Below, piece by piece: positions 601 to 51,206 of a stretch of 64,000 bases of DNA (the stretch's first letter is position 1; each line of letters opens with the position of its first letter). Under the pieces are notes generated by a model. That model was not told the DNA's origin. It did not search any database and worked only from the letters and a program-made list of their open reading frames with translations. Origin of the DNA: Datisca glomerata. Its lineage: Eukaryota; Streptophyta; Magnoliopsida; Cucurbitales; Datiscaceae. The DNA lies in NCBI GenBank assembly GCA_003255025.1, contig QANY01013423.1, positions 2,283,779-2,347,778 on the forward strand, given 5' to 3'. Position numbers and translations under genes: made by a program.

Positions 601-626
601 TACGTGCTTCGCACGTATTAAACTAA
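601..626 (+). repeat. Helitron-type 3' hairpin plus CTAA, copy 1
   Basis: Seven-base arms TACGTGC (601-607) and GCACGTA (611-617) enclose a TTC loop. CTAA follows at 623-626, then T. This fits the hairpin and CTRR rule for Helitron 3' ends. Confidence 0.55.
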
Positions 627-1645: not shown

Positions 1646-1670
1646 ACGTGCTTCGCACGTGGTAAACTAA
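1646..1670 (+). repeat. Helitron-type 3' hairpin plus CTAA, copy 2
   Basis: Six-base arms ACGTGC (1646-1651) and GCACGT (1655-1660) enclose TTC. CTAA follows at 1667-1670, then T. It is the equivalent of the copy-1 hairpin one repeat unit later. Confidence 0.55.
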
Positions 1671-7103: not shown

Positions 7104-7299
7104 ATGGATGTAGTGACCAAATTCTGTTTGTCGCTAAAAAATTGGTCCCTCAAGGCATTTTTCTTGTAATGACACCCACTAAATCGTGAAACTTCAAACT
7201 TATTATCTTATTTTCCTGATTTTTAGGAGCTCCAATTTGTTTGATTTGGTGTTTCTACAGTTTGTATGGGTTCTTATTGTCATAATAGTTATTACGTTA

Positions 7300-7425
7300 T
7301 TACTTTTTTTTGAAAACTTACATTACAAATTTTGAAAAGGAATTGGGGAATATGACTCGAACCCACGACATCTAGAATATGATTGTAAGAATTTAACCAA
7401 CTGCGCCAACTCAAGTTGTCAATTA
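7300..7425 (-). mobile_element. tRNA-derived SINE
   Basis: On the minus strand a box-A-like sequence (TTGGCGCAGTTGGTTA, near 7,397-7,412) and a box-B-like sequence (GGGTTCGAGTCATA, near 7,350-7,363) are spaced as in a tRNA gene. The anticodon region does not fold as a functional tRNA and no acceptor pairing was seen. An unrelated body follows and ends in an A-rich tail (complement of the T-run at 7,306-7,313). This is the layout of a plant SINE with an internal RNA polymerase III promoter. Confidence 0.6.
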
Positions 7426-9727: not shown

Positions 9728-10905
9728 CTACTGAACAATATCAGTATCATGTTCTATCTTCTGTTTACTGATGTCTTCGCCGCCCCATTTCTCCATGCGC
9801 TGGGTTGTTTCTTCTGCCTGCAATGTATTTTCAAAGTACATATATTAACACACATGGACATAAATCAAAATCAACCACTAGAAGTAGCATCCAGTAGGAT
9901 GTTTTTAATAAATTTTCAGTCATCTCAAAGCAAATGAAACTGAAGTAAAGATTTCGTCGAAAAACTTATGTGCACGCACACACATATGCAGCTACACAAG
10001 CGCAAAAGATCGTTTATATATGACATCGCTATTACTTATTCATAAGGGATTTTTACTTACTTCTTTGTTCCAGTTGGTTCTATAAAGCACGATAAGGAGG
10101 AGCAAGGTTTGCATTGCAGTTCCACATATCATGCCACCCCAAAGCCCCTAGAGCCATGAAAAAGAATGTGCCAATTAAGGGTCTAGCGCTAGCATGATAT
10201 ACTCAATTGTCAAAACTACGTAATAATAATTAAGAATATTTAATTACCTGTACTCCTAGATGTGCTACGTAGCAAAGAATGGCTCCAAGCGGGAGACCGA
10301 AAATGTAGTAACAACCTAAATTGATATAAGCTACTAATGTCTGCCATCCGGCACCAATAGCAACACCTACGAGATTAACAAAAAGTTAATTCAAAAATCA
10401 AACAAGTGACAGGATGGAATTAAGATGATTAATGACTTGTTAATAATATAAGTACCTGATATGACTGGCTGGACACTGTTAAGTACAAAGGTAATACCAA
10501 GAAGGTAAGCTAACTTGGCGACGTTATGCTGAACAACCTTGCTGCTTGTGAAAATTACAGCAAAATCGTCCTTCACTAGAATGATCACAGTCATTAAGAT
10601 AAGGCCAAGGACAAAAGATTCTGTTACTGATACATATACAGAATATTTTGCGGCTCTTGGACGTCTCTTTCCAAGCTCATTGGAGACCCTGACACTACAA
10701 GATCATGAAGGAGAAAAAAATGCAGTAATTTAGACATGATAAAGAAAAAAAAAGTTTAAACAATTTTAATTGTGATTAAATTAATTAGTGGTTGTGACTA
10801 ATTTACCTCATAGCAGCATTTACTCCAATGAATAAAATAGTTTCCAACCCGTTCAAATTCAGGCTGAAATTTACCCATCAATGAGTTAAGAATATCTTCA
10901 TTAGA

Positions 10906-10936
<31 letters not shown>

Positions 10937-22255: not shown

Positions 22256-25200
22256 CTATTCACCAATGGCTTGGCCACCCCATTTCTGCATGCGTTCTGT
22301 TGTTTGTGCCGCCTGCAATTAATGTCCAAAGTAATTCTATTATGACAAGGGAACAAACAAACAAACAAAACCAACCAATACCTGGCCATTTCTATGGAAT
22401 TTCATCGTCTCAAAGTAATTCGATAGTAGCAGACGTTGGAACCTTTTAGTTTGTGTTCATGAAACAATAAGAAAAGTACATTTAAACGGTTTACGCTTAC
22501 TTCTTTGTTCCAGTTGGTTTTGTAAAGTACGAGCAGGAGAAGCAACGTTTGCAATACAATTCCAGTTATCATGCCACCCCAAAGCCCCTAGAGCAATGAA
22601 AGATTTTGACAAACTGAGATACAAGATTACTTTTAAAGTTGCCCTGCTTCTAAACAAGAGAATTATTTCAATAGAATTGCGTACCTGTACTCCTAGCTTT
22701 GCTACGTAACCAAGAATGATTCCAAATGGAAGTCCGAATATGTAATAACTACCTAAATTGATATAAGCCACCAATGCCTGCCATCCCCCACCAATAGCAA
22801 CACCTACAAGATTTACAAAAGTTAAATCAAATCGACAGCATTGAAGACGTATCAAATCACCAGATCAAACTAGCTAACTTAACTACCTGATATCACTGGC
22901 TGGACACTGTTGAGTAAAAATGTAATGCCCAGAAGGTAGGCTAATTTGGAGACACTATGCTGCACTACTTCACTGCTTGTGAAAATAAACGCGAAGTGAT
23001 CCTTCACTAGAATGATTAGAATCATGAAGAGAAGGCCAAGGGCAAAAGACCCTGCTACTGTTACATAAACTGAATATTTAGTGGCCCTTGGACGTCCCTT
23101 TCCTAGCTCATTGGAAACCCTCACACTGAAAATATATAACAGACAAACAGTTAAAAATAAATGTTTGAGGCCATAATTGTCAACTTTGAAGCCTACTCAG
23201 AAAGCAACTGAAGAGCGTTTCTTGTGGTACAGTCATGATTTCTATTGTGTGGATACGTATATACATTTAGACACACACACACCCTTCTAATTAAAACACT
23301 GACTCACAATCTAATTAACCCCAATGCATTCAATTATGATGCTATTACAGTCTTCTCTACAACACGGAAATTATATGCACGGGTTTATTTATATCTATGG
23401 TAGAATTTTCCTAATCATTGGTTTCCTAAATTGGAAAAATAAGAGATTTCCTAAAACTCATTAAATACAATAGTAAAGTCGTAAATTTCGTAGACCCCTA
23501 AAGTCACAAACCTTAAACGTGGGTAGAATTATCCTAACCATTGGTTTCCTAAACTGGAAAAATAAGAGATTTCCTAAAACTCATTAAATACAATAGTAAA
23601 GTCGTAAATTTCGTAGACCCCTAAAGTCACAAACCTTGAAGGAAACACCGCTTAGAGTTGAGAGAGAGATAACAAATAAAGAGCAAACCATTATGTTAGT
23701 CGCAATTTCAATTTCATAAAACAGCATGACTTTAATCGCAATTCAAAAATCAACGGTTATGGTAAGTTGTTTTTGTGATTTACCTTATCGCAGCGTTTAC
23801 TCCAATGAATATTATATTTTCCCACCCGTTCAAATTCATGCTGAGAAAATAGATAATCAAGGAAGTAACAAAATGTCAGGTCCAAAACATCAGGAAAAAA
23901 TATGAGAATATAGAAAGCTGTTGATTGATGCTAACATGCTAATTAATCGGTCAATGACAAATTTGTACTTCAGGGTCTCACCATATGGAAAGGGAATCAA
24001 CTGCAATCACAGGGTTGTCAAGGTGACCGGTGAGAATAATGATACTCATCATATACCAAATTTCTAAGCAAAGCATCACAGCAGAGGAAATGGAGAGCTT
24101 TACAAAACCCCATAAGTCCCTGAAAGCCAACCATGACAGCCCATACCAAGAATCCTTGCACCAAAAAATGACATAGAGAACCTGAGCTATAGCGATTCCC
24201 CAGCCAGTGATGTTAAGTGCTATAGCTGCACCAGTAGTACCCCAACCAAGTTCATAAATGAAAACCCAAAGCAAAAGAAGGTGTATTATTAGAGCCCCAA
24301 ACGAAATCCACGCAAGTGTAGCAACCCTGCTTTGAGCCTGAAGAAACTTCTGGGTAGGGAAAACTAATGCAAATGAGAACAATTGAGGAAGTGTCATGAG
24401 ACAAAATCTCCCAGCAAGTTCTGCAACCTCATCTGCTTGCCCAATTGCCTTCAGAAGTGGAGTGGCAAATATGTATATAGGCAAGATGAGGATGGCGCAT
24501 ATGAATGTTATAATCCATGACCTTTGCATGTAGACGCCAAGCATTTCGAGCTGCCCAGCACCAAATGCTTGACCACAAAGCGTCTCAGTTGCACTTCCCA
24601 TTCCCAACTACAAAGGAAAACAAAAAATTGGCACACCGACACTGATTCAGTTTCTTACTTTAGATATCGGAGAGGAATCTACAAATTTAAAAATCGAGGG
24701 GGAGACGGGGCATTGTGCTATTACTACTAAATTTCTATCTTAATACTAAATTACCCATTCTCAAATTTAGTCTATCACCCAAAATCACTTAAATTACTAC
24801 AAATTTCTAAGTACTAAATTCTAACCATCCAAACTATCAAAAGACCTACCAAAAATCAACAAGTGATCTGAAAGTAGCAGTCCCCATGACGAATATGTAA
24901 ACAAATGGTCACATTCTTGATAGCTGATAATACATCATCAAGTACTTTACTCCAACAGAAAGTAAAACAGAGAGAGAGAACTATGCTGGTCTTTCTAGCT
25001 AGCTAAAACAGAGAGAGGGGGGGGGGAGAGAGAGAGTAGGGCAGACCATGAAGCCATAAGCGAAGGTGCCAACGACAGAAATAGCAATGGAGACACCAGA
25101 GAGTTCAAGTTCACCAAGCTGGCCGACAAATATATTGGTGACTGAGTTGGTACCATATTGACAAACTATTTGGAAGATAATAGGACCTGCTATCCTCCAC

Positions 25201-25313: not shown

Positions 25314-26925
25314 CTCTGATGTGGTAGTAGGACACTAGTAGAGACTGGACGTTGGAAATCATTTTGACATGTCCTTTTATTCGTTAATGCGCAGTCACTC
25401 GGATTTAGGTTGTCACTGTTCAACATATATCCAATCCAAGCCGTTGTTTAAAAATTAACGGCACAGATCCGTTTTAAAACGAACAGATCCAACTCTCCGT
25501 CACTCACTTGCCCCAAAAAGGTCTTCTTGATCGTGTTTGATTAATTAGAAGAATACGAAATATAATTAATTAGTCCCAAATCTGTAGACCGACCTTGTTG
25601 AAGAAGGAAAAGCTACAGTCTCAGAAGAAAATCTTCATCATAGGTAAAAGAGGGAAGCAGAACAGAGACTTTCCCAAACACAGTAGATGTCTAACCATTT
25701 CTGGTAAAAAACGATTTCAGGCTACAAGTAGGCATCCGTTGGATTCATAGGAGATCATAGGCAACCGTTAGAATCACTTGTATATATACATCATCCCTCA
25801 TTGTAAACAAACATAATTTTATCTTCAATAACAGATCAGAACCAAAAAAGGGTTCATCATCTCTGAAGCTCATCACTTCCCAAAGATCAGAACCAGACAG
25901 GTTCATCATTTCTACAGACCTACTCTCCCATTTAAAAAGAAATTTAATTAATAAATTATTTAAAAATAATTGATCAGATTGGTCTGCATTGTCAGGTGTC
26001 ACCGTCACCGTCACGTATGGTCGACCATCTTGTTTAAGTAACAATTTAAAAAATTTGGAAGGACATTAATAACTTGAATAAAATAAAACATGACTGGAAG
26101 TCTGGAACTGGATGCGTCCTGTCCTGTTGCGATAGAAATGGAATGGGGATTATAAATAATTGTTTGAATTACAAATAAGCACAACACATGAATCACGTTT
26201 TACCTTTTTATATTTAAACGATTATTTGGTTGGATTTCTGAAATCCTCTGCAGTTTAATTAAACATTTTATTATCTGTTGCTAGCTGTTAAAAACACACA
26301 AAAACAAATGGATAGCTAAAAGATGACACTTCCAAGTACACACTTTCACGTGAATCATGACTTCTTATATATATATATATATATTTATCCGCTTAGCACA
26401 GATTCTTTAAAAAAGGATTTCTCCTACCTCTTCATATTAAAAATATAATAAACAATTAATTACATGTAGCATCGTCATTAAACTGCGATCTTTAATCAAT
26501 TCTCCAATTTCTTCACTCTTTTGTCAATTCAAAGACTATATATATATATTAAATTATTAGAGTTTATAAATATTGGCTGAAAATCACGTGCACCTTAGAC
26601 AATTTATTATATTTTATCAATACACATTAAACAAATATTTAAATAGCCACCTCATATTAAATACGGGATCTTTTGGTCAATTAAAATTATTAATAACATG
26701 TAGATTAAGATGGGGACTTATATGTATTATAGAATTATAGTTGTAGATTATACATATGAATGCTAGTCAATTTTATAACAAGAAGGTGACGAAAGATCTT
26801 AAGATAAAATTGGAGGTGTTGTGAAAAAAATTCTAGACGAATTTCTTCTCATTTTTTTAAATCACGTAATTATCCTTCAACTTAAAATTAAATGATATAT
26901 TAATGATTTTAAAATAAGTACTACT
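25314..26925. other. Intergenic DNA upstream of MATE gene 2
   Basis: It should include the transporter promoter. A (TA)n run lies near 26,365-26,384. Nothing else was recognised. From about 26,930 the MULE/Ulp1 block begins with its first palindrome. Confidence 0.4.
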
Positions 26926-26928
26926 TGA

Positions 26929-26944
26929 AAGGTTCAAGTAGTTT
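26929..26944. repeat. Isolated palindrome of the CTACTTGAA family
   Basis: ACTACTTGAA, AGG and TTCAAGTAGT form one copy of the palindrome that makes up the arrays further right. A degraded second copy (CCCTTCAGTAAGTAATC) follows. It marks the left edge of the block carrying the arrays. Confidence 0.7.
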
Positions 26945-27040
26945 TATATAACTATTCTAACCCTTCAGTAAGTAATCAAGTACTTTTTTGTGTATAAATA
27001 AATTATGATACTTACTTTATATCTACATCCTTCAACAGAT

Positions 27041-27446
27041 ATGGCTCCAAAAATTCAGTTGACTTCAGTCTTCAATAATGATGAAATTATTCATGGAAAA
27101 GTGAACTGTCTCTCTAGCCTAAATGCTATTATGAAGGTGAATGAAAAGCTTACCGAATCTCAGAAGACTCTGTTTAGGAAGACATGTTTCGGTCATTTGC
27201 TGAACATACGGAGTATCCAACTTTCTAGAAACATATGTTATCACATGCTTCTTGGAGAAGCCACGACAAAGGATTTCACTACTAAAGATAAGATGTACTT
27301 TTGTCATAACTGGAAAAACAATAAGGTTCTCTAAGATAGAATTTTCTTTGATAGTTGGCCTTCACTGTGGCACTCCTCTTGACCTTGGGACATATGACAA
27401 AGCTGCCCCAAGTAGTCAGATACAACTACTTGAATCATTCAAGTAG
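27041..27446 (+). pseudogene. DUF1985-like exon of the Ulp1-type gene
   Basis: It starts at ATG (MAPKIQLTSVF), preceded by CAG. The first frame runs to 27334. The second frame picks up as TFVITGKTIRFSKIEFSLIV up to 27446, so one extra base near 27,300 breaks the exon. The frame then runs into the palindrome array. Confidence 0.6.
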
Positions 27447-28201
27447 TGATTTTTATTCTGAAAGTCTAGAAGTCAAAACATGCAACTACTTGAAGGGTTC
27501 AAGTAGTTATCTGACTACTTGAACCCTCCAATTAGTCATTTATTCACTACTTGAAGGGTTCAAGTAGTTGTATCTGACTATTTGAACCCTTCAAGTAGTG
27601 GTTTTGATTCGGAAGTCTGGAAGTCAAAACATGCAACTACTTTAATTGTTCAAGTAGTTGTATCTGACTACTTGAACCTTCCAAGTAGTCATTTGTTCAC
27701 TACTAAAAGGTTTTAACTAGTTGTAACTGATTACTTATACCCTTCAAGTAGTCAAAATATGTAACTTCTTGAAGGGTTTAAGTAGTTGTATCTGACTATT
27801 TGAACCATTCAAGTAGTGATTTTGATTCTAGAAGTCTAGAAGCCAAAACATGTAACTACTTGAAGGATTCAAGTAGTTGTATCTGACTATTTAAACCCTT
27901 AAAGTAGTCATTTATTCACTACTTGAAGAGTTCAAGAAGTTGTGTCTGACTACTTGAACCCTTTAAGTAGTGATTTTGATTCTGAAAGTCAAAACATTTA
28001 ACAACTTGAAGGGTTCAAGTAGTTGTATCTGACTACTTGAACCCTTCAAGTAGTGATTTTGATTCTGAAAGTTAAAACATGTAACTACTTGAAGGGTTCA
28101 AGTAGTTATATTTGACTACTTGAACCCTTCAAGTAGTCATTTGTTCACTATTTGAGGGGTTCAAGTAGCAGTACCTGATTATTTGAATCATTCAAGTAGT
28201 C
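27424..28201. repeat. Palindrome array 1, about 21 units
   Basis: About 21 copies of a 21-25-bp palindrome (arms CTACTTGAA and TTCAAGTAG, centre GGG or CCC) at roughly 37-bp spacing. GGG-centred and CCC-centred units alternate. The short spacer after a GGG unit is TGTATCTGA-like. The longer spacer is TGATTTTGATTCTGAAAGTC-like or TCATTTGTTCA-like. The array lies between two coding segments of the Ulp1-like gene, presumably in an intron. Confidence 0.92.
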
Positions 28202-28232
28202 GTTATATCTGCACCTTTCAATAATTATTGAC

Positions 28233-28960
28233 ATGTTTTTGACTTTGAACCCAACTGACCAAGAAGAACAAGAGCCATTCTGGAAGAATTTTACAGAAGT
28301 TCATAAAGTTGGGGCTATTGCTGGGGAAGTTAGGGTTGTTGTTGAGGAAGTTGGGACTATTGCTGAGGAAGAGGTGGACTTGCCGAGTCCTTTCCTTGAA
28401 AGTGGAATTGTGCCTGAAGAAGTTCCACTATTAAAGTATACTGCTTTTGGGGTTGTTGCTGGTAGTGGGGATGATGATATCCATGCTTTCATGCATGAGA
28501 CCAAAAAGAAACTGGACATCATGGCTTCTAATATTAAAGAACTTAAGATTGACTCAACAATACTGAAAAAATAAGCTGCTGATATTAAGAAGGAATTAAA
28601 AAGCATTATAGGTCAGCTACAAGTCCTTATTGATCAACAAGTGAGATCCCCAATTGGGTAAAAGTTTATGTACATTCTTTTAAGAAAGCTGTTAAGAATG
28701 GTCACAACAAATTTGACAAGATGGATGTTAGACATGAAGAAAAGTTGGATGGTATTGAGGGGGAAAATTTGGATGGTACTAAGGGAAAATTTTGGATGAT
28801 ACTGATGATAACACATCTAACATCATTCCTCAAATTGTTCAACAGTACAATACTGAATTATTGAAAGAGACAACCAATGAATAGGAACAGCCCACTATTG
28901 AGCCCACTGTAGAAGCAAATGTTGAGATGCCTACTGAGAAGGCTGGGACAAAGGTGGTAG
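28233..28960 (+). pseudogene. Middle segment of the Ulp1-like gene
   Basis: It codes a low-complexity acidic stretch (repeats like EEVGTIAEEE) followed by a lysine-rich, coiled-coil-like stretch (KKKLDIMASNIKELK). TAA at 28572 interrupts it, but the same frame resumes as ADIKKELKSIIGQLQVLIDQ. The segment ends at the solo LTR insertion point. Confidence 0.5.
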
Positions 28961-29640
28961 AGAAACTGTAACGCCCCGATCCCCGAGGGTTAAACATACG
29001 TGTAATTTCATAATTTTAAAATCTCCAATTCGAAACAAACCCTAATTTTGAGAAAATTCCCAAATTGAAAATTTGTAATTTACCCATGATGAGAAAAACC
29101 CTGACCTTAAATAGCGAAAGCATTAAACTTATCCATGATCAAAATCTTAATCATAAAATATCAGAAGCGATAAAGTGTCTTAAATGAATAATTAATAAAA
29201 CCTCGAAAACCTGAATTAAGTTATGAAATAACGTCAAAACTTGAAATCCATAATCCATAAAACTTTCACTCATCATAATTCGTAGAAAATCATATCGTAA
29301 AATAAACTACTTGAATAACCAAGTTTAACAGAAAACATTTTCCTAAGTTTTAAATCAAGTCATAAACTGAAAACATAAACTCATGCTGCTCGCCATCACC
29401 ACCTGCATAAAAAATAGCCTGTGGGGGAATGTGTATTTTAACTTGACATATATCATAAATAAAATAAAATAATGTACTTGATCATGACATGGCTTAACAT
29501 AGCACGCAGATAACATGTGTCTCAAACAGAATCATTTAACAATCTTAATCATATCTTGGCTTGCATATCCTCTAGTTAACAACCTAATCAGAACTGATCA
29601 CACTTTAACTAAAACACATCATGACGAATTGGGCGACGAA

Positions 29641-29845
29641 ACAGATGACACACATCGGGTGATGAAACAGATGACACTCATTGAGCGATAGAACAGATAG
29701 CACTCATAGGTGATGAAAAACGTGAACAGATGACACCTCATGAGTGACGGAAAATATTTACAGATGACACCCAATGAATGACCAAAACATGAACAGATGA
29801 CACCCTATGTATGACGAAAGCATGAACAGATGACACCCCATTCGT
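29641..29845. repeat. ~26-35-bp minisatellite within the solo LTR
   Basis: About seven units begin ACAGATGACAC at roughly 29641, 29667, 29693, 29725, 29760, 29792 and 29825. Spacers read like CATGAGTGACGAAAACATGA. Confidence 0.8.
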
Positions 29846-30774
29846 TTAACAGAATATAACGTGAACAGTCCTGATTTCTTGTTAATTAAAGGTCATGTTT
29901 AAATTCATATTTTGCTTGATTACCACTTCAATGAATTAACCTCATAACTTACAGAATCCAACGTATGACAAAAATTAATCATATAATGCATACTGATACA
30001 TATAACAGAATCAAACATGATAACATACTAACGTAAAATCAGTTATACTCAGACATTTATCTCATGATAATCACATTAATAACTGAACAGTAATCAATTA
30101 CCAAAGTGTTAACCAAATATAATAATTATTGAAACATGTTTAAACAGATAATGAATACATGATACTATTATAATATCAAAATCACATCGTTATATAAGTC
30201 AATTTACACAAACATATATATGAACGTAACATGCTTACAGACAATTAAGCTGATGAGAATAACACATATTACATTTATCACACGTGGGTCACATTACAAT
30301 GTAATTTCACTTACTCAAGCACATATATTTATCACACATGGGTCACATTGCGATATAAATTCACTTACATAAAGCATATACATTTATAACAATGGGAGTC
30401 ACACCATTATATAAGCCCACTTACCTGAAGTGGAAGAATGAATTAAACAATTAATGACCTGAAATCCAAAAAAGTATAATCACTAAATTATTTGGAAATA
30501 AAACAATATAAACACATTTTCGATATCCTGAAATAGAAAATATAGATTTAATTAAAACAGTGCAAAATGGTAAGGAAGAGGTTGGAAAATAATATATCAG
30601 GTCCAGAGTCAAAAGATAAAGCTTCAGGTCAAATGGTTCAGACCGGGCTGGTTCAGACCAGTCCGGTTCGATTTTATCTGATGGCTTGGTTCAGACCGGT
30701 CTGAGTAAGCTGAACCGGTTTGGTTCGTGATGAACCGATTCAGGACAGAGCAACTGAGTGCAAGACCCAGTTGC

Positions 30775-31355
30775 ACAACAGAAAGCACGAGGAAACAGAG
30801 GGGAAAAAGGGAGAGAGAAAATGAAGGAGAGAGAAACAAAGAGGGGAAGAAAAACAGTGAGGGAATCTGAGAGGGGAAGAGAGAGAGGGATGTAGAAAGA
30901 AGCAGAGAGAGACAGAGATAGAGAGAGAGAAACAGAGGGCGAGAGAAAGGGAAATAGAGGGAAGGGGAAAAGGGGCGTCGGTGATAAACCGTCAGTGATG
31001 GCATAAGCAAAGGGAGGGAGGGAGAGAGAGAGAATAAAGATGCAGAGGGAGACAGAGAGAGAGAGAGAAAAAATGAGAGAGAGAGAGAGAAACAGAGAGG
31101 GGAAGAAAAACATGGAGGGAATCTGAGAGGGGAAGAGAGAGAGGGATGTAGAGAGAAGCATAGAGAGACAGAGATAGAGAGAGAAAATGAGAAGGAGAGA
31201 GAAACAAAGAGGGGAAAAACATAGATGAAGATGAAAGAGAGAGAGGCCGAAAGAACAGAGATAAAAATAGAGAGGGAGGGAGACGAAGCAATGACGAAAG
31301 AGAGAGGGAGGGAGACGAAGCAAGGATGAGAGAAAGAGAGAGAGAGAGAGGACGA

Positions 31356-31393
<38 letters not shown>

Positions 31394-31440
31394 TCAAAGA
31401 AAGAAATCAAGAAAGAAAGAGAAGAAGATTACCCAAATTC
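30775..31440. repeat. GA-rich low-complexity tract in the solo LTR
   Basis: GAGAGA, GGGGAA and AAAGAG runs dominate. They produce long Ser/Leu-rich ORFs on the minus strand and an Arg/Glu-rich ORF on the plus strand, none of which is a gene. Parts are locally duplicated: the block with GGGGAAGAAAAACA...GTGAGGGAATCTGAGAGG at 30,840 recurs at 31,096. Confidence 0.85.
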
Positions 31441-31873
31441 AATTAGAGAGAGACCAACGAAAGAGAAGAGTTGCTGGCCTGCATGTGGCTGCGCGGGGAG
31501 GAGAGAGCTGGGAGAGAAGAAGTTGTTTTGGAATATATATATAACAGGTTAAAGGTTGATTTAGGGTGTATATGCATGTAGTGTGAGTGATTTTCAATTG
31601 AGGTTGAGATTGCCTAATCAAGGATAAAATAGGGTTAGGGTAATACTAGGGTATACATAAGCATATGGTGTGAGTGAGCTAAAATTTTATAATATAAATT
31701 AAAACTCTTTTAAAATTGAATAATTGAATTTTAAACTAAACCATATATAATTAAAATTATTTTACCAAAATTACAAATAATCACTTTTTAAAATCAAATT
31801 TTAAAATCATTTTATCTTTGAAATCAATTTTACAAAAATGCCCATTTACGAAGAGTCGGGATATTACAGAAAC

Positions 31874-32075
31874 CTTCTAAGGGGACTGACTCAAAAGTGG
31901 ACAAGTCTATTTTAGAATCAGAATCCAACGTTGTAGAGGTGCTTGGGGAGTTGGGAAAGAGAAAGCACCTTCCTTCCCAATATGTCAAGTCTTCATGGAC
32001 AGATCCGACAAGAAAACAATGTCGGATAGAACAATTTGAGAAAGATACCCCCACTACCATTCAAACGCTTTGATG
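31874..32075 (+). pseudogene. Ulp1-like gene segment after the solo LTR
   Basis: It reads KGTDSKVDKSILESESNVVE and then GELGKRKHLPSQYVKSSWTD, in the frame continuing from the segment before the LTR. The KRK...SPY/SQYV phrase is common in MULE-borne Ulp1 proteins just before the protease domain. It ends at TGA near 32,070. Confidence 0.5.
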
Positions 32076-32302
32076 AACTGACGGAAGAAGATGAGAAATT
32101 TTTTTCCAATGGTATGACTCCGTTGATGATAAGTAATTTCCTAAACTTATGTACATATATGTTCTGTTTTGTTTAAAAGAAGGTTAGATGATTGTACATA
32201 AATATTTTGTTTTGTAGCACTACCATCCAACTTAGCATTTCAACTATTCGTAAGAAGTTCTTCTCCAAGCTCTTGGATCCAGTTGAATGGTTGGAATCAG
32301 AG

Positions 32303-32691
32303 GTTCGTATTTAATTAATTTAGAATTTTTTGACTACTTGAACTTTTCAAGTAGATACTTTTTAGTCATGCATTAAGTTAATCCAATGAGAATAAGACTA
32401 CTTGAATGGTTCAAGTAGTCTTTTTTTACTATTTGAGCCCTTCAAGTAGATATTTTTTAGTCTTATATTAAGTTATCCAGTGAGCATACGACTACTTGAA
32501 GAGTTCAAGTAGTTTTTTTTTACTACCTGAACCCTTCAAGTAGATATTTTTAGTCTTGCATTAAGTTATCCCGTGAGCATAAGACTACTTGAAGGGTTCA
32601 AGTAATCTTTTTTAACTACTTGAACCCTTCAAGAAGTATCATTTTCTATGTTCTGCAACATATAATAGATTTTTCCTTATTTTTTTGGCAG
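32303..32691 (+). other. Intron of the Ulp1-like gene filled by palindromes
   Basis: Donor GAG/GTTCGT at 32303 and acceptor TTTTTTTGGCAG at 32691 bracket the intron. The exons on either side read RKKFFSKLLDPVEWLESE and YIDERSLKIWRGLHDF, as in Ulp1-type genes. Seven palindromes fill most of the intron. Confidence 0.6.
32331..32638. repeat. Palindrome array 2, seven units, inside an intron
   Basis: Seven alternating units of the CTACTTGAA/TTCAAGTAG palindrome, with spacers different from array 1: CTTTTTTTA-like short spacers, and AGATATTTTTTAGTCTTGCA-like long spacers followed by GTGAGCATAAGA. Confidence 0.92.
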
Positions 32692-33743
32692 TATATTGAT
32701 GAGCGCTCGCTCAAAATTTGGAGGGGTCTTCACGACTTCCACTCAGATTGACGAATCAATATTTCTAAAATTATTTTTAGGTAAGCTTTTAGGTTTTTTC
32801 TAAAATACAAATTCATTGCGAACTTAGTATGTTATATTGATAATTTTGCTGACCTCAAATGTAGGCTAACATGTATGGTAGATGTGAACTATTTGATGCT
32901 AATCCATCCGAATTTGCATTAGAAGATAATGACCTTTTGCGAGCTTATATAGTCGGACCGAGACCACATTTTAGAAGAGATTGAGATTCATGTGATCAAG
33001 TATGGTTTTTCAAATTATGTCCTTTAGAGGTTGTTTTATGCAAAGTTTACTGAAATACTATTGTATAGGTTTTGTTTGTTATGAATGTGAACAAATCTTA
33101 CTGGATAACCATGGAGTTGGACCTCAATGAACAAGCTCTCAAATCAATGAACAACGTCACTCAACAAGCCCACCTCCGTCCACTAATGCGACCCTTCACC
33201 CATCTACTCCCTCATGTACTAAAAATTATGAACTTTTATTAAAATAGAAAAAAGTTCATAAAGTACTTGATGAGTGGACTCTAACTCATGTCAAGGTTCC
33301 TCAGCAAGGGAACACGTGAGCTTGATTTGATTTATTTTGACCTTAATTCATGAAAGAAGGATATTTGATTTATTTTGCATTTGTTTTGTAGGTTTGATTG
33401 TGGTGTTTTTGCCTTAAACTTTTTGGAGGCATTGGCTTATGGTCGGGGCTTAAAAACTATAAAGCAGAAACTTATGCTACAATTTCATAAAAAGTTGGAT
33501 GTGGACTTTTTTTTGTCATACATCTCCACTTGAAGGTCTTACAGAACTATGAACCTTTGTTTTTTATTTATTGTTTAGATGTCTGAATTCTTATAAATAA
33601 TTATTTGGATAACAAGTTTTTTATTAGATATATTTGTTGATTGGAATTTAAGAAATTATAAACTGATGAGGGGTTAAATATTGATTACTGCATGAATGAT
33701 GTCAATTTATCTGTCTAGATTGCTCACTAACAGTAGATAAAAA

Positions 33744-34130
33744 TGATACTTGAAGGGTTCAAATAATAAAAAAGTACTACTTGAACCCTTCAAGTAGTAA
33801 AAATATACTACCAGTAGTTACATGCTCTCTGAATAAACTTAGGGCAACAAACAATATGACTACTTGAAGGGTTCAAGTAGTAAAAAAATACTACTTGAAC
33901 CTTTCAAGTAATTACATGCTCTCTGAATAAACTTAGGGCAACAAAAAATATGATTACTTGAAGGGTTTAAGTAGTAAAAAAATACTACTTGAACTCTTCA
34001 AATAGTAAAAAAATACTACTTGGACCCTTCAAGCAGTTACATGCTCTCTGAATAAACTTAGGGCAACAAAAAATATGACTACTTGAAGGGTTCAAGTAGT
34101 CATAAACCACTACTTGAACCCTTGAAATAG
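33744..34130. repeat. Palindrome array 3, nine units
   Basis: Nine units lie between the stop of the Ulp1-like gene (33533) and the end of the MULE transposase (34257), that is, in the shared 3' region of two convergent genes. Spacers carry TACATGCTCTCTGAATAAAC followed by TTAGGGCAACAAA, repeated three times. Confidence 0.92.
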
Positions 34131-34256
34131 CCATCAAATATATGCAATTTCCATTAGTTTGCTTACTAACCAAAACAAATAACTACTTAGGTTGGTAAAA
34201 ATAGATACAAAATTCTTACAATGTACATACAAAATTTTACCAGTATACATAAAAGT

Positions 34257-36434
34257 TTATATGCCTGGTTGTGATTCATCACGCATGTGAAGGGGGGTAG
34301 GATGTTTGCATGTCTCTCTATAGTGTCCGCTTAAACCACATCGACTACATTTATTTGGTTGTACATCTTCACCTCTAGATGGTATTTTGTTTACCTTGGG
34401 CCTCCCACTAGACCGCCTCATCATAGGGGGGTAAGACAATTCTTTCTCTCATCCCGTCACTGATAGTCCAGTCAGTAGGATTTCTGAGGGGGTGAATTGT
34501 TTATGCGTAAGCTGCCATTAGTGCCCGAACCTTAAAATACTTCGAGCATAAGCTGTAAGAAGATATGTTGCATTGTCGACAACAAGATAATGCATATGCA
34601 CAAATGTATTGGTCTAGATCAAATTCACGATAATGCATATTTTTATGCAAGTTTACAACGTGCTTTCTATCCCTAGTACTTACACGAAACTCATGAATAT
34701 CTGAGGCAGCCATTGAAAGTCTATGAGAAGCATCATGATTCTTTTTAAGCTCATTCTCACACCATTTGGTCATCTGTGTGTGCATCTCATAAGTAGTTGT
34801 CCGACATTGATAATACCACTATTGCATCAAACCACGCAGATGTTCTATTAAACTTATTATTGGAAGGGCTCTAGCATCCTTTAGTATGCTATTCATGCAT
34901 TCAATGATGTTGGTAGTCATTATGTTATAGCGTCTACCACCACAATGAGAAGGAGCCCATCTATCAAATTCGGCCGCCTCAATATAGTTTTCAATACCAG
35001 GATTAACTTGGTTGATAATAACCATATATGCCTCAAATTATGATACACGATAGGCATTGGCTGCTTTGAAAAACAAATGATTGACGTTGCTAGTTTTGAA
35101 CGTTGATTTTATATTCATTCTCATATGGTAGATGCAAGCTCCATGGAATGATTATGGGAAGAGAGTTTGTATTCCCTTTACTATACTTTCATTTATGTCC
35201 GACACAAATACCAAGTCATTCAAGTCTCTAATAACCACGTGCAGTTTATTAAAGAACCATTCCCACGATGCGTCATTCTCAGAGTCAGCAATCTCAAAGG
35301 CAAGTGGATACACTTAGTTATGTCATCTTAGAAGTTTCAATGAACATTGTCCCCTATACTTTGCTCTTAATGATGTTCCATCGACAGCAATTACGGGACG
35401 TATACAATTAAGACATCCATGAATCGAGGCTCCAATCGACATGAAGAAGTATTTGAAATGGTTATGTTCATCAGTTTCTATATGAGTAACAGTATCTGGA
35501 TTCTTCGTCTTTAACATGTGACAGTAAGATGAGAGCCTCATATATGAACTTTCAGGTGAACCTCGAACTAGAGCCAATGCAACTTCCCTAGCCCTCCAAG
35601 CTTTGTCATAACTTATATTGATTCTATAATCCTTACGAACATCTTCGATGATATCTTTCAGCCTATATATCTATCCACCACTAGTGTATTTTGACTTTAT
35701 GTAATGACCGACCAATAAGCTTGTTACTTGACGATGATCGTGTTGTAAGATGTCAAAAGAGCACGTATTAGTATTTATCAACTTTGTTATTTTAAAGTAC
35801 TCTGAAAATCACACCTTAATATCCTGTAGCCTTCATGAACATGTTTTCTCAGTAGAAATAATCACCAACAATTTCGGCGTAGATTTGAAGACTCCAAGCT
35901 CTAAATTTTGATTGATTGCCAAGAGTCCAACAAGTCTTCAGAGCTCTTCTTTGTTTTGGTAGAGTTATTTTATACCTAACATCTGATACACTTACATGCT
36001 TGTGATCCTTTAGTTGTGATAAGCTCAGAGCATTATAGGATGTGATGAAGATGCAATGTTACTTAGCATTATGAAGGGTGTGCATTAGCTTATGATCTTC
36101 TATTCAAATCTGGTAAGGTAGAGGGATCATCCCAGATTGTTTCTTCATATAATCTAAAATCAAGATCATCATCAACGTCAATATCAAGCCCACCATCACT
36201 GTCAGGATGTTCAAGTTCATCATCATTAATATCTTGTAGACAATCATCATTATCATATCTCCCACCGTAATACTTCTCTGAATGCAAATTGACATTATCA
36301 TTGTTCTCATCATTATCAACCATTGTTTCACCCATGAAACATGGAATGTGACCATAACGATCTTGTTGCGAGGAAGTTGTTACTGCTTCTGCTTTATCTT
36401 CTTCTTCTTCTTCTTCTTCTTTTATTGTTATCAT
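34257..36434 (-). pseudogene. MULE (mudrA-like) transposase, broken
   Basis: Minus-strand pieces follow mudrA order. An acidic linker is at 36090-36434. A DDE domain with RPVIAVDGTSLRAKYRGQ is around 35340-35410; then LAFEIADSENDASWEWFF and VFVSDIN are read across frameshifts near 35,200-35,330. FDRWAPSHCGGRRYNIMTTN followed by IIECMNSILKDARALPI (34819-35025) and a SWIM-like stretch (34550-34700) come next. Last is a zinc knuckle CSRCGLSGHYRETCKH after RRSSGRPKVNKIPSRGE (34257-34439). Stops and frameshifts separate the pieces, so it is inactive. It converges on the Ulp1-like gene; palindrome array 3 lies between them and array 4 upstream. Confidence 0.85.
36399..36422. repeat. (TTC)n run
   Basis: On the minus strand this codes the glutamate run at the start of the acidic linker of the MULE transposase fragment. 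Confidence 0.8.
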
Positions 36435-36602
36435 GATTATTCTTCTTTATCATCTTCTTATTCTTATTTTATTCTTCTTTGACTTCTTTAAGACACTATG
36501 ACCCATCTTTTTTCAGCGAGACCCGACCATTCTTCTCATTCTTCTTCTTCAACGAGAGTAGACTAGTACCCATTTCTCTCTTTTTTTTATGCATAAAATG
36601 TT

Positions 36603-37454
36603 TCAAGTAATGATTCGAGTAATGATAGAATAAAACCAATTATTTGGACAGAACCACTACTTGAATCCTTTGAGTAGCCACTTATGTTTGAGTTGTTGAT
36701 GCAAGAAAAAAATAACTACTTGAAGGGTTCAAGTAGTTAGAGACCCATTCTTAACCCTTGAAATAATTAAGTGGTTTTTACTTTACTGCTGCCATAATAA
36801 AATAAACTATTTGAAAGGTTCAAGTAGTTATAATAACTACTTGAACCCTTCAAGTAATCACATGTTCTCTAGATAAGTGATTGAGAAATCAAAATGACTA
36901 CTTGAAGAGTTCAAGTAGTTATAAAATTATATTTGAACTCTTCAAGTAGTCACAAGCTCTCTACATAAATGACTACTTGAAGGGTTTAAGTGATATTTTA
37001 TAACTACTTGAACCCTTCAAGTAGTCACATGCTCTCTGGATGACTAACTGCAAGAATCAACATAACTAATTAAAGGGTTCAAGTAGTTATAAACTACTAC
37101 TTGAACCTTTCAAGTGATCACAAGCTCTCTAGATAAATGACTACTTGAAGGGTTCAAGTAATATTTTATAGCTACTTGAACCCTTCAAGTAGTCACATGC
37201 TCTCTAGATGATTGACTGCAAGAATTAAAATAACTACTTGAAGGGTTCAAGTAGTTATAAACCACTACTTGAACCCTTCAAGTAGTCATAAGCTCTCTGG
37301 ATAAATGACTACTTGAAATGTTCAAATAATGTTTTATAATTACTTTAACCCTTTAAGTAGTCACATGCTCTCTGGATGACTGACTGCAAGAATCAAAATA
37401 ACTACTTGAAGGGTTTAGGTAGTTATAAATGACTACTTGAACCCTTCAAGTAGT
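36603..37454. repeat. Palindrome array 4, about 19 units
   Basis: About 19 units of the alternating palindrome lie upstream of the MULE transposase. Short spacers are TTATAAA(C)-like. Long spacers carry CACATGCTCTCTGGATGACT followed by GACTGCAAGAATC. The CATGCTCTCT word is shared with array 3, while arrays 1 and 2 have other spacers. Confidence 0.92.
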
Positions 37455-37565
37455 AAAATGTTTTTTGGTTATTTAATGAGAATAAATAAAGTTATTATTC
37501 ATAAAAAATAACGACTACAAAATTAAATAAACTTTATAGGTGAAAGATTTTTGTCTTAAATAGAT

Positions 37566-38054
37566 ATGTCTGAAATTCGGATATTGGTGGTATACGGTGA
37601 TGAATGGGAGAGAAACGATGCTTCATTCATTTTTAATCGTATGGTAAGCTCACTGTTAGATACACCATCAAACTGTACTTACCAAGAGTAATCCAGTATA
37701 GTATACGATTAAATAAATGTTGATCCAACAAAGTACAATATTTCAATGAATTTTTTATACAAGACTCATGTGCCTTCCCCATCTGTTAAAATTTTAAATG
37801 ATCGTCACGTGAGGTTTTTCATTGTCAAGAATAGTTTGGAAGCACTTCGTCCTCCTTTATATATTGCTCCCAAACCCAAACCTAGGATAATTGTTGATAA
37901 TCTTACATGTCCATGTCAAAGTTGGGTTCTTGAAACAACTCTCTCACAACAAGATCGTTTCGTCACATTCCATGCTTTATGGGTGAAACAAGAGAAGAAG
38001 AAGAGACGAAGAAGAAGTACATTTTTGTTGAAGAAGAAGAGAAAAGAAGCTTGA
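37566..38054 (+). pseudogene. MULE transposase N-terminal fragment on the opposite strand
   Basis: From ATG 37566 the reading is MSEIRILVVYGDEWERNDAS..., then after two stops VDPTKYNISMNFLYKTHVPS and VRFFIVKNSLEALRPPLYI. This matches the PB1-like amino-terminal domain of plant mudrA proteins. It then contains a stretch (TTLSQQDRF..., around 37,940-37,990) whose DNA is homologous, in inverted orientation, to the TTSSQQDRYGHIP stretch at 36,330-36,375 in the minus-strand transposase. So it is either a second partial copy or an inverted duplication. It is not functional. Confidence 0.7.
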
Positions 38055-39439
38055 AAAGAGAGCTAAGAATGGGGGAGTGAGTATTTGTTAACCATGGTTG
38101 ATTTGATCTTTGCATAGGCAAAGAAAAGGAAATGATGAGGAAAGAGAGAGTTGTCACCGCTTGATGTTGATAATAGTGGGCCAGTAGTTTAAAATTCTGA
38201 GTTTTAGAAAAGAAGTATAAAAATCCTAACAAAAAATAGAAAGGCTATATTTATCCAAAAAACCCTAAAAGTATATACATTTTTTCTAATTGTCTTGATG
38301 AGATTATTTCATTTAGTTCAAATAAAGAGAGAGAAATATAAAACTTGTAAGCTTCATACTCTTGACAATAGATTGTGACAATATAGGCATATCATTAAAC
38401 TCTTCACTTAATTTTTCTATTAATATCTCACGGTTATGAAAAATCTCATTATGTATATTCAATAAGAAAATGAAAGGACAAAAGAGTAACTAACATGCTA
38501 AATGAATTTCAGATTTTAAAAATTATGAAATCAATTTATACTGATTTTCTTTAATTGATGATTAAACGTGCATGAGAAATTAGATTAGTTTTGTTTCGAG
38601 GATGAATTCCGAACTGGATCGGGTCATGAATGGAGAGTTGTCTATTCATCGGAGAACCCTTGGGAATGTGGAGGTCTAGCACGGAGGAAAGGATGAGCAT
38701 CCTTAATGGCCTAGACAATGGCAAATATACCTCCTTAGGGTTGCAAAGGAGAGGGAGAGGGAGAGAGATCCCCTAAATGTATGTGTATAATGTCCAAATA
38801 TCCAACCCCCCTCAATAGGAGTGTTAAGCATCTTTATACAGAAAGTAAGGGGTAAACCCTATTTTATGATTGGCCAACCAACGATTGCTAAGTGTAAGTA
38901 GATGCAACATATAAGATACTGCCACGTGTTCCTAGGTTCATCCTCAACGAGAGGATGATGTATCTAAAACCTACTGAGGAGGTCATGATGATGGACCGAC
39001 ACGATGAACCTTATCCTAATCTTACCAAGTCATATGCCTCCAATTCATTCCCAAGGCAGTAAGAGTTCATCCAAGTCTTCTCACTTGATTTGATAGTTAT
39101 AGGTAAATAATCATACGGGTCTGACCAGTGCGGGTAGACCCAGCGGGTATGTCCAGGGTAGAAAATTTATGTATAAAAAGCTTATTATTAACTTTGAAGG
39201 TTCATGATAAGAACATAAAATATACGTATCTTAATTAACTTTTAATAAGAAAAGGAGATCAAATGAAAGTGATCTTACAAAAAATAAATAGATCAAAAAG
39301 ACTTTAAAATTCTACTATTCACTATATATACTTTATTTCAGAAATTAACATATATTCTGATACATAAATGTTGATTTTCACGTGAAACACACGTGTCAAA
39401 GAGTAATTTATAGAATAGATGCAAACGCAATGAAAATGA
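38055..39439. other. Non-coding stretch between TE fragments
   Basis: GGCTATATTTATCCAAAAAACCC ends near 38,266; its complement would look like a MULE terminus, but no partner end was found. The segment at about 38,590-39,190 is GC-richer than its surroundings, with GAGAGGGAGAGGGAGAGAGA, and may be an old LTR fragment, but no coding or paired end supports that. Confidence 0.35.
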
Positions 39440-42800: not shown

Positions 42801-42920
42801 GAAATGGCTAAAGAGAAACGACCCCTGAATTTATAGAAATCATAGGAAGATGGGCAAGATGACCCGAGGCACGAGGCGGGGGAAGAAACTGAACTTGTGT
42901 GGTTAGAGGAAGGAACTCAA

Positions 42921-44801
42921 TGTTAGAATTGAGTTTTAAAATTTAAGGAAAAATCATTGAACCACGAACTATTCATGGATGGAATATCAAATTTTTTTAC
43001 ATCAATCAATTTAACCATATTAAATATTAAAATCATACATCCGATTATGTATACAAAGTTAAAGGTATTCAAAAGAGGTATAAACAATTTTATACCTTTC
43101 TTGTAGCGGAGATATTCTGATTCAGTGGAATCCTATTAGTCATCTCACGTTTTTCGTTCTTCATAGAATTCAAATCAGTCTTCACATCAACAACCACTTG
43201 TAGAATTTAGAAGTATATCTTAATTGAGTGTTGATCAGGAATTGAACGTGTGCTCTCAAAACAACTGGAGAAGAAAAATCAAAATTTTCCTTCTCCCCTA
43301 TAGATTTTGGAGGCAAACAGAGGAGGGAGAGAAACTTTTTCCTGCTCTGTGTAATCACACCCTATGTTAGGGTTAGAGATGCAACCCTATTGCCATCCCT
43401 TATATAATAATTACGGAATTCATACACATTAACTTACTGAAAATTTACCCCCTAATTTTTACTATTGCCAAAAATTATGTATCTTCTTAGAGTCAATATT
43501 GTATCCAAATTCATCAATTCAAATTAATATCCATCAATTGATTAATTAATTAATTTTTTTACTAATTATTCAATAATTAGAAAATGACCAATTAATTAAT
43601 TTGAACATTAATTACTTGGTTGTCACTAATTAAGTGACAACACCCATAAAATATGAGTTCGAGAAATATACATTGATCCAAAATATGTTTTTGGTCAAAA
43701 TAGTGTTGTTTTTCATTTTTGTCCTAATGAGCTACTCTTGAGACCGAATGGGCCTCATATAGTCTTATTCATATGGGTCCATTCAGTCTCAAGAGTAGCT
43801 CATTAGGACAAGAATGGACCCACATGAATAAGACTATATGACTTAAATACTCAGTGAATTTATCTCTATAGATTCCCGACCTATTTAATCTTAACATCAT
43901 ACGACTCCACTATAAATCCGATGCTGAATCAACTCTTGATTCATACGCGCTACATTTTTGTTGGTGCAAAATAAACACTTTTATTTTACTGTCCACAGAA
44001 TATTTAACATATTAACCTTCGTGAGTATCAGAAACAAGAGTGGAATGTAAAATTACCATTTTACTCATCTTGTTATTATTTCCGTAACTCATTTATTGGC
44101 TATGAATAAGAAAGACATAATAGTGAATTATCTTGTACAATTCCACATCTTATTCAATTATTCATTTCATCGAGTACCTAGTCAGGTTAATTTATTCACG
44201 CACCCATCAATAAAGCATGAGGTGATATTATTACATTTTGCAATCTAACCACGAATTTTCATATCTGTATATCGCGCAACTCCAGCATAGTTGAATCATG
44301 ATCCCAACAGTTGAGGTATTGCCCAGCAATTCGAACTCACTCATTTGGTGTATCAAAGATCATAACTAACTAGGTCAAGTTTCGTATTCACCTCAGGATT
44401 AAGGTAATTATGAAAATACCCTTAAGGTGCAACAATTAGATTTAAAGCTAGATAAACGGCTTTACTCTAAACTAATTTGTTACTGATCTATTCAACATAT
44501 TTCATAACATGTCTAGGTCCACCGTTAGAGTTTCCACTCTCATGCCCCGAGACCAGCATTCTTTGGTTCAACCTAACAGTCATAATCAGACTCAATTATC
44601 CAGTCAATCCTAAGACTGCAAATTTCAAAAGAGTTTATCTGGAAGACTCCTCTGTCTTTACTCTTCTTACGTTGACAATAATTCCAGAACTTGAGTAAAT
44701 TATAAAACACTTTAATTAATAGAAAAACTTGCATTCATTCATTAAACTCAGTAATACAAAATGTCTGAGAAATAACTAAATACTCAAAAATAGTTATTAC
44801 A
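42921..44801 (-). repeat. 3' LTR of the copia element
   Basis: It aligns with 49406-51206 over its whole length and contains an extra inverted copy of about 60 bp at 43,752-43,810. A minus-strand CDS ending at 44843 stops just before it. Confidence 0.85.
43721..43842. repeat. Interleaved inverted repeats within the 3' copia LTR
   Basis: Four blocks are arranged X-Y-X'-Y': X 43721-43751, Y 43752-43783, X' 43784-43810 (complement of X), Y' 43812-43842 (complement of Y). The other LTR has only X-Y'. So an inverted copy of X-Y' was inserted into itself. Confidence 0.85.
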
Positions 44802-49390: not shown

Positions 49391-49405
49391 GGCTCTGATA
49401 TCAAT
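49391..49405 (-). other. Primer-binding site of the copia element
   Basis: On the minus strand, directly after the LTR end CCTAACA, the sequence ATTGATATCAGAGCC resembles the initiator-Met tRNA primer-binding site used by copia elements (TGGTATCAGAGC). It fixes the element's orientation. Confidence 0.7.
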
Positions 49406-51206
49406 TGTTAGGATCGGGTTTTAAAATTTGAGAAAAAATCATTGAACCACGAACGATTTATGGGTGGAATATTAAATTTTTTACAACAATTAATTTAATC
49501 ATATTAAATATTAAAACCATATATACAATTATGCATACAAAGTTAAACGTATTCAAAAGAGGTAGAAATAATTTTATAAATTTCTTGTAATAGAGAAATT
49601 CTGATTCAGTAGAATCCTATTAGTCATCTCGCGTTCTTCGTTCTTCATAAAATTCGAATCAGTCTTCACACCAACAACCACTCGTAGGATTCAGAACTAT
49701 ATCTCAAATGGATATTGATCAAGAATTGAGTGTGGGATCTCAAAACAACTTGAGAAAAAAAATCAAATTTTCCTTCTCGTCTATAGATTTCTGCAGCAAG
49801 CAAGGAATGGAGCGAAACTCTTTTCTGCTATGTGTAATCACATTTTGTGTTAGGGTTAGAGATGCAATCATATTGCCATCCCTTATATAATAATTATATA
49901 ATTTGCACATATACCCCTATATGTTAAATTACAAAAAATTCACCCTCTAATTTTTTCTATTGCCGAAAATTGCATATATCTCTAGAGTCAATGTTGTGCC
50001 CAAATTCATCAATCTAAATTGATAAATTAAATTGATCTACATCAATTAATTAATTAATTTTATGTACTAATTATCCAATAATTAAAAAATAACTAATTAA
50101 TTAATTTTAATTACTTGGTTGTCACTAATTAAGTGACAATACCCATCATATATAGGTTCGGGAAATATCATTGGTCCAAAACACGCTTTTGGTCCAACTG
50201 GTGTTATTTTTCATTCTTGTCCTTATGAACTACGTCTGAGACCGAATGGACCCACATGAATAAAGTTAAAGGATTCAAATACTCGCTGAAATCATCTCCA
50301 CTATAGATTTGATACCGAATGAACTCTCGATTCATGCACGCCACATTTTCTGTTGGTAAAAATACATACTTTTCACAGTCCATAAAATATTTAACATATC
50401 ACTCTTCATGAATATCAGTAATAAGAGTGAAATGTAAAATTATCATTTTACCCCTCTTGTTATTATTTCCTTAACTCATTTATTGACTGTGAATAAGAAA
50501 GACATAATAGTGAGTTGTTCCGTACAATTCCACATGTCTTATTCAATGATTCATTTCATCGAGTAATTGAACAAGTTAATTTACTCACACACCCATCAAT
50601 AAAGCATAAGACGATACTGTTGCATTTTACAATCTAACCATGAATTTTTATATCTGTGAATCACGCAACTCCAGCATAGTTGAATCACGATCCCAATAGC
50701 TGAGGTATTGTCTGAAAATTTGAACTCACTCCTTTGGCGTATCAAAGTTCATAACTAACTAGGTCAAGTTTTGTATTCATCTCAAGATTAATGTAATTAC
50801 AAAAATACCCTTAAGGTGAAACAATTAGATTTATAGCTAGATAAATAGCTTTAATCCAAACTAATATGTTACTGGTCTATTCAACATGTTTCATAACATG
50901 TCTAGGTCAACCGTTAGAGTCTTCACTTTCATGCCCCAAGATCAGCATCCTTTGGTTCAACCTAACAGTCATAATCAGACTCGATTGTCCAGTCGATCCT
51001 AAGACTACGAATAACATTCTGAAATATTTCAGAAGTGTTTGTCTGGAAGACCCCCCAATCTTTACTCTTCTTACATTGAAAATAGTTTCAGGACCTGAGT
51101 AAATTATAAACATACTTTAATTAAAAGAAAAAGTTCCATTCATTTATTAAATTCAGGAATACAAAATGTCTGAGAAATAACTAAATACTCATAAATAGTT
51201 ATTCCA
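49406..51206 (-). repeat. 5' LTR of the copia element
   Basis: Direct repeat of 42921-44801 with many substitutions, bounded by TG/CA. It lacks the inverted insert seen in the other LTR. Confidence 0.85.

Follow-up and report, generated by a model that had tools for sequence, protein, structure and literature searches.

Palindromic motif arrays on Mutator-like elements with long terminal inverted repeats in Datisca glomerata as probable VANC-type address tags

Why should dozens of copies of one short palindrome be held in and around the genes of a single transposon? The question is raised by a stretch of 64,000 nucleotides from Datisca glomerata (positions 2,283,779 to 2,347,778 of contig QANY01013423.1; hereafter the window), which contains a Mutator-like element (MULE) encoding a transposase and, convergent to it, a protein with DUF1985 and Ulp1 domains. 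Arrays of a near-palindrome are found in an intron of this element, in its intergenic space and upstream of its genes. We propose that they are lineage-specific binding sites of a VANC-type protein, and consider it likely that they constitute a VANC-type address system on a whole MULE family.

The palindrome, motif A, is 23 bp long and has the form ACTACTTGAA-NNN-TTCAAGTAGT, with a centre that is mostly GGG or CCC. A scan of the whole window with up to 4 mismatches at the 20 arm positions gave 56 copies, all within 26.92-37.45 kb; 20 simulations of a second-order Markov background gave none. An earlier note on this DNA had counted about 57 near-perfect palindromes in four arrays, and both observations hold (arrays A1 to A4, Table 1), with A4 beginning at 36,656. 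The note had seen no copies elsewhere in the window, which is correct (none with up to 5 mismatches outside 26.92-37.45 kb; 11 matches with 6 mismatches against 3.9 expected). The palindrome is not restricted to this region: its 18-base core has 9,447 exact copies in the 678-Mb assembly, the reversed control none. In a prokaryote collection the core gave three isolated, chance-like single matches, and in viral contigs none. The copy that the note had described as isolated exists, at 26,920, but it has a CCC partner 31 bp away at 26,951, decayed to 6 mismatches, and it closes an array that precedes the DUF1985 gene. This follows from alignment with another copy of the element, L024, in which positions 6,883-7,005 match window 26,920-27,040: the homology begins exactly at the 26,920 palindrome, whose equivalent is the last of 13 palindromes upstream of the L024 DUF1985 start.

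Within the arrays GGG and CCC centres alternate, the only exceptions being a CC step in A3 and a GG step in A4. Of the GGG-to-CCC steps in the window, 23 of 25 are exactly 31 bp and all 25 fall within 29-31 bp. The 23-bp consensus is identical across A1-A4 while the flanks differ, and the 8-bp spacer varies from array to array while the step stays the same. Beyond the window the claim rests on 142 G-to-C steps in the loci analysed, 122 of them, across 20 loci, being exactly 31 bp; neighbouring A copies alternate in 273 cases and share an orientation in 61, and a 7-bp gap between G and C copies occurs 120 times genome-wide. Palindrome and 31-bp pairing, about three helical turns, are kept although the spacers change.

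The arrays belong to MULEs that bear terminal inverted repeats (TIRs) and encode a transposase and a convergent DUF1985-Ulp1 protein. In the window the transposase lies on the minus strand and Ulp1 on the plus strand, and they are on opposite strands in loci L019 and L022 too. The transposase matches PF10551 above the cut-off (E=1e-11, stops read as X; 6 stops in the part searched), its best-scoring match being a Malus sylvestris protein at 46%. The Ulp1 catalytic part matches PF02902, also above the cut-off (E=1.6e-11, pieces joined with X). The DUF1985 exon, with its frameshift read as X, matches the mango protein P0071 in its DUF1985 part (33% over 97 aa, E=2.5e-11 in a 120-protein set); P0071 includes a MULE transposase as well. 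A wider search for relatives with the Ulp1 protein returned nothing at E <= 0.001 among 7,996 candidates scored, and the 45 pattern matches obtained for the MULE in IMG/VR included no relative. Array A2 sits in an intron whose acceptor reads ...TTTGGCAG / TATATTGATGAG and whose donor GT is ambiguous by one base; in L022, 2 palindromes follow the exon equivalent to the one that precedes A2. At the position equivalent to A3, L032 has 7 palindromes and L031 none. A1 lies inside the gene at a place where splicing is not established.

The link to a MULE/Ulp1 element, as the earlier note had it, extends beyond the window. We analysed 199 kb around the 11 first-listed clusters of the core, which lie on three contigs and are not a random sample. 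Five of these clusters (L008, L010, L015, L017 and L019) are each enclosed by a pair of matching TIRs, and no MULE coding was detected within them. Four others have MULE coding (L012, L022, L024) or one TIR (L023, which adjoins L022). Of the last two, L021 resembles the array that precedes the DUF1985 gene and L013 has only non-coding MULE sequence in common, so that no array independent of any element, as expected of a simple satellite, was found among the 11. TIRs of about 150 bp or more bound the five elements on both sides, and the window copy has one at its right end. With palindromes masked, blastn matched window 38,098-38,268 to the left ends of L010 (E=2.4e-24; outer end GGGTTATTTGGATAAATATAC) and L008 (E=6.7e-18). 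A TIR profile gave E=9.8e-33 on the window's right end, which is among the 12 ends from which the profile was built and which it then recovers; independent matches were obtained in L031 (E=2e-20), L024 (E=5.8e-15) and L037 (E=1.1e-11). The five elements without MULE coding also carry target-site duplications in the 8-11 bp range of MULEs: 9/9 positions agree in L017, 9/9 in L019 (read from the flanks), 8/9 in L008, 8/9 in L010 and 6/9 at the TIR end in L015. In the window copy the left TIR was not found with the TIR profile or by searches for the duplication, nor was the rest of the DUF1985-upstream array found. Candidate left ends were rejected as chance-level or as overlapping the 26,920 palindrome, although one scored 38 against a shuffle maximum of 32.

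L019 was at one point taken for an A-type MULE, which was rejected. Its positions 1-6,300 hold a MULE with transposase, Ulp1 and DUF1985 that is of a second type, described below, and directly adjoining it is a non-coding A-type element (6,774-9,501) flanked by the 9-bp duplication AAGTTTGAT.

A search of the genome with the transposase gave at least 118 matches (100 of 5,966 candidates were scored), which fall broadly into two groups, one with 56-80% and one with 46-52% identity to the window. Among the first loci compared, two of the close subfamily have 9 and 22 A palindromes, whereas three sister loci (L028, L029, L030) have none. These instead carry 39, 13 and 34 half-sites of motif B, with half-site CTACACGATG and partner CATCGTGTAG, often arranged as CTACACGATG-N10-CATCGTGTAG to give a 30-bp palindrome. 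With a free 10-bp centre, motif B has 1,225 exact copies genome-wide and its reversed control 0; the centres vary among the copies listed. The B half-sites of L028 and L030 lie past the transposase 3' end, in a transposase intron and upstream, those of L029 mainly upstream, and those of L019, whose transposase is 42% identical to that of the window, between genes and between exons of the Ulp1 gene. The twelve sister loci in all show no A palindrome and have motif B instead, barring one or two stray half-sites.

The correspondence was followed up in 16 further loci, 8 close and 8 sister, hand-picked from the match list, in a region set beforehand, which lay some 1.1-2.0 kb ahead of the transposase core. 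Presence was taken as at least two half-sites, a threshold not set beforehand, so that lone half-sites (B in L035, A in L046) count as absent. Motif A was present in 6 of 8 close loci (11 to 26 half-sites) and 0 of 8 sister loci, motif B in 8 of 8 sister loci (2 to 14 half-sites) and 0 of 8 close ones; shuffled sequence gave mean counts no higher than 0.16 (A) and 0.08 (B). A FastTree phylogeny that combined eight copies with ten other plant proteins places the A transposases (local support 0.999) and the B transposases (1.0) in sister clades, with a joint support of 0.993. DUF1985 identity between the types is 29%, as against 42-50% for the transposase; within type A the window and L024 share 66%, each DUF1985 figure coming from a single comparison (one B copy, L019; one other A copy, L024). 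The palindromes are a real, genome-wide and lineage-specific tag array on a MULE family, and in a sister subfamily, whose MURA transposase, DUF1985 and Ulp1 are divergent, another palindromic motif is found at corresponding places.

A precedent exists in Arabidopsis. There VANDAL MULEs encode VANC proteins, which contain DUF1985 and recognise short motifs found in dense arrays in the introns of VANC and VANB and upstream of VANA; binding causes loss of DNA methylation, and related VANCs use different motifs (PMC5735166, PMC10398659), the VANC21 motif being YAGTATTAY and the VANC6 motifs AGTTGTCC/AGTTGTAC. According to a 2026 review, Ulp1-carrying VANC genes (KIU) act likewise on motifs in non-coding DNA, and the Ulp1 domain is strongly conserved in the eudicot clade (PMC13317346, which cites Sasaki et al. 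2022). The earlier note had known of no described plant element with this organisation; in view of the VANDAL arrays, bound by their own VANC (PMC5735166), and of the KIU genes (PMC13317346), that is incorrect. The present elements have in common with the VANDALs the MULE setting, a DUF1985 gene within the element, a short motif densely arrayed in intronic, intergenic and upstream DNA, and different motifs in related families. The Kaonashi (KI) MULEs in turn have an Ulp1 (C48) domain in a gene opposite mudrA (PMC2528002), as here. In open-licence literature, mostly titles and the starts of abstracts, we found no description of the motif or of its layout, and a text search with the half-site letters gave no plant-transposon paper by title among the matches listed.

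The arrays match the VANC picture in position, density, lineage specificity and, for motif B, phasing. By this analogy, the DUF1985-Ulp1 protein of the same MULE probably binds the palindromes as a VANC-type anti-silencing factor. The dyad symmetry of the site suggests that it would do so as a dimer, and the bound protein would be expected to remove silencing marks from copies carrying the tag, autonomous or not. What is known is the VANC-type kind of system; the dyad symmetry, the alternation and the TIR-bearing elements are different.

Several observations weigh against this proposal. VANC21 motifs run in one orientation while A copies alternate. VANDALs have no TIRs, or short degenerate ones (PMC6446971), and the elements here have long TIRs and are therefore not filed as VANDALs; KI-MULEs are likewise described as non-TIR, so that the absence of TIRs common to both groups is not found here, although some Brassicaceae elements grouped with VANDAL do have them (PMC6446971). 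The window DUF1985 is a weak, partial Pfam match (PF09331, E=1e-3, under the curated cut-off, profile positions 10-41 of 141). In the stretch examined, 2 of the 8 close loci lacked both motifs, and a single sister locus held just 2 B half-sites. MURA and DUF1985 change together between the subfamilies, so the motif switch does not tell which of the two proteins reads the motif. Other differences concern the unit, here a 23-bp (A) or 30-bp (B) near-palindrome unlike the VANC motifs available for comparison, and the Ulp1 domain, which sets the element apart from VANDALs; binding and demethylation, established there, are predicted here.

Spacing bears on how such a protein might be arranged on the DNA. 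Motif sequence, density and helical periodicity are said to have been named as determinants by Sasaki et al. in 2022. Neighbouring B half-sites have a best common period of 10.5 bp (R=0.78; 171 spacings pooled from 12 loci). For motif A, helical phasing is only suggested, by 31 bp lying near 3 x 10.5; the commonest distances between half-sites on the same strand are 31, 93, 62 and 124 bp. Set against this, periods of 15 and 10.5 describe the same-strand A distances equally well (R=0.53 each), the distinct other A spacings peak at 9.75 rather than 10.5, and the 29 distinct B spacings taken alone give R=0.51 (P=0.018). More tentatively, with a confidence somewhat short of even, we suggest that at least two orthogonal self-addressed anti-silencing systems operate on these TIR-bearing MULEs, in which dyad-symmetric arrays at helical-turn steps (31 bp for A, multiples of 10.5 bp for B) would be read by a dimeric DUF1985-Ulp1 protein polymerising along one face of the DNA.

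Among other explanations, the one that survives best, though we regard it as unlikely, is that the arrays are transposase-binding repeats, one of the earlier note's suggestions, or transposition-enhancer repeats. It would account for elements that keep TIRs and arrays where no MULE coding is detected (L008, L010, L015, L017, L019) and for a motif type that follows the transposase clade; 10 of 12 long-TIR Aedes MULE families have subterminal repeats, of 9-15 bp (PMC5225508). Muta1 of Aedes aegypti in particular resembles the present family in its long TIRs, 8-9 bp duplications, many non-autonomous copies and short repeats. The Muta1 repeats, however, are subterminal tandem repeats within the TIRs, whereas those in Datisca are internal, palindromic and alternating. 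Transposase binding is the weaker explanation because the TIRs are not where the arrays are found; they occur within an intron, in the space that separates the convergent genes, and upstream of genes. The element also has a DUF1985 gene, for which there is a DNA-binding precedent.

It is less probable still that the arrays are a satellite born in the MULE, as the earlier note had allowed, in the form of a minisatellite that spreads passively by slippage and has no function. Local tandem amplification is clear (periods 93, 94 and 168), array copy number varies, and the window copy is dead. Against this, four arrays with different spacers share one 23-bp consensus, the G-to-C spacing is fixed, A and B are mutually exclusive at equivalent positions, and B spacings fall on multiples of 10.5 bp at many different lengths; subfamily-exclusive motifs and a phased sister motif make a passive satellite a poor fit.

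The least probable reading, very unlikely in our judgement, is that the GGG/CCC pairs are maintained for their RNA hairpins, as a source of small RNAs or as regulators of splicing: long hairpins are predicted for 5 of 6 tested pairs (z between -8.0 and -11.6, as against -3.8 for the decayed isolated pair), but such folding follows from the palindrome itself, the B copies listed have variable 10-bp centres, 26.5-38.5 kb contains no Rfam family at gathering score, and arm covariation is absent: among 371 units there are 17 compensatory arm changes where 18.5 would be expected by chance, and 9 matched changes in the partner where the expectation is 13.7. The small-RNA hairpin of the earlier note accordingly finds no support as a selected structure. 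The arms mutate independently, and what has been preserved therefore looks to be sites in duplex DNA, not a hairpin of RNA or DNA. Per site, C-to-T/G-to-A changes outnumber those in the opposite direction fivefold (11.3% vs 2.2%), an excess that may reflect formerly methylated DNA, as expected of it, although there are other possible causes. The A arrays are nearly free of CG, yet motif B contains CG, and a function of CG-free arrays was dropped as a general rule.

Table 1. Positions of the host MULE, its arrays and a separate B-type element in the window.
Feature	Position	Strand	Remarks
Last palindrome pair upstream of DUF1985 gene	26,920-26,942; 26,951-26,973		GGG copy; decayed CCC copy
DUF1985-like exon of Ulp1 gene	27,041-27,409 (end approximate)	+	Frameshift near 27,327
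Array A1	27,425-28,200		21 palindromes; within Ulp1/DUF1985 gene
Ulp1 gene, degenerate middle part	28,201-28,966	+
Insertion into Ulp1 gene	28,967-31,868		TG...CA ends; 5-bp duplication GAAAC; long GA-rich tract
Ulp1 gene, degenerate exons	31,869-32,303	+	Ending ...WLESE
Array A2	32,333-32,637		7 palindromes; in intron
Ulp1 (Peptidase_C48) catalytic part	33,069-33,531	+	Frame breaks
Array A3	33,745-34,131		9 palindromes; between convergent genes
MULE (MURA) transposase with CCHC knuckle	34,290-36,446	-	Pseudogene, several stops
Array A4	36,656-37,454		18 palindromes; transposase-upstream array, here in inverted block with N-terminal exon
Transposase N-terminal exon	37,566-37,904	+	Inverted relative to the rest; best matches residues 1-102, melon MULE proteins
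Right TIR	38,118-38,265 (approx.)	-	Outer end GGGTTTTTTGGATAAATATAG
Non-autonomous B-type element, separate	56,231-58,107		TIRs, outer ends GGTTTTTTTGCAAGATTATACC / GGGGTTTTTTGCAAGACTATACT; duplication AATAAATAT on both sides

The window copy itself is a dead, 5'-truncated and partly inverted relic. A local inversion spans 36,323-37,991 and takes in the transposase N-terminal exon and A4, with a 59-bp inverted duplication at its break points (36,323-36,381 / 37,934-37,991). In L031 and L032 array, N-terminal exon and transposase follow one another on one strand, and in L022, L031 and L032 the exon shares the strand of the transposase. The insertion in the Ulp1 gene looks like a later arrival of the solo-LTR (long terminal repeat) kind. 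The A1 region (27,409-28,232) resembles the L021 array, which also matches the L024 array upstream of DUF1985, and a weakly similar stretch resembling a 5' untranslated region follows A1. The 25 bp after A1 score 15 against their DUF1985-upstream counterpart, the shuffle 95% limit being 14; judging from these similarities, A1 may have originated as a copy of the DUF1985-upstream array that was displaced into the gene.

In the B-type element at 56,231-58,107 fall 14 of the window's 15 CTACACGATG half-sites; its duplication was read from the flanks, an automatic slide giving 7/9. Elsewhere in the window there are a 1.5-kb direct duplication (88%) within 1-2,582, a duplicated segment pair (83-85%) at 42,917-44,798 and 49,401-51,203, and duplicated segments (77-82%) at 10,056-11,660 and 22,496-24,613 that overlap coding sequence of a MATE-type transporter, for which the best-scoring match is from Cucurbita pepo (71%).

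The finding addresses the question of how a transposon escapes silencing without freeing its rivals, on which the experimental work on anti-silencing in the literature consulted concerns Arabidopsis VANDALs. Here two sister MULE lineages in one genome have their own tags in corresponding places, so that exchanging proteins and tags between them could test the specificity code directly. Dimeric, face-aligned binding is predicted by the dyad symmetry and by the helical spacing of motif B, and non-autonomous members of each lineage may likewise be marked by its tags. If the helical-turn, dimeric reading is true, VANC-type systems would have changed not only the motif but also the symmetry and geometry of their address code.

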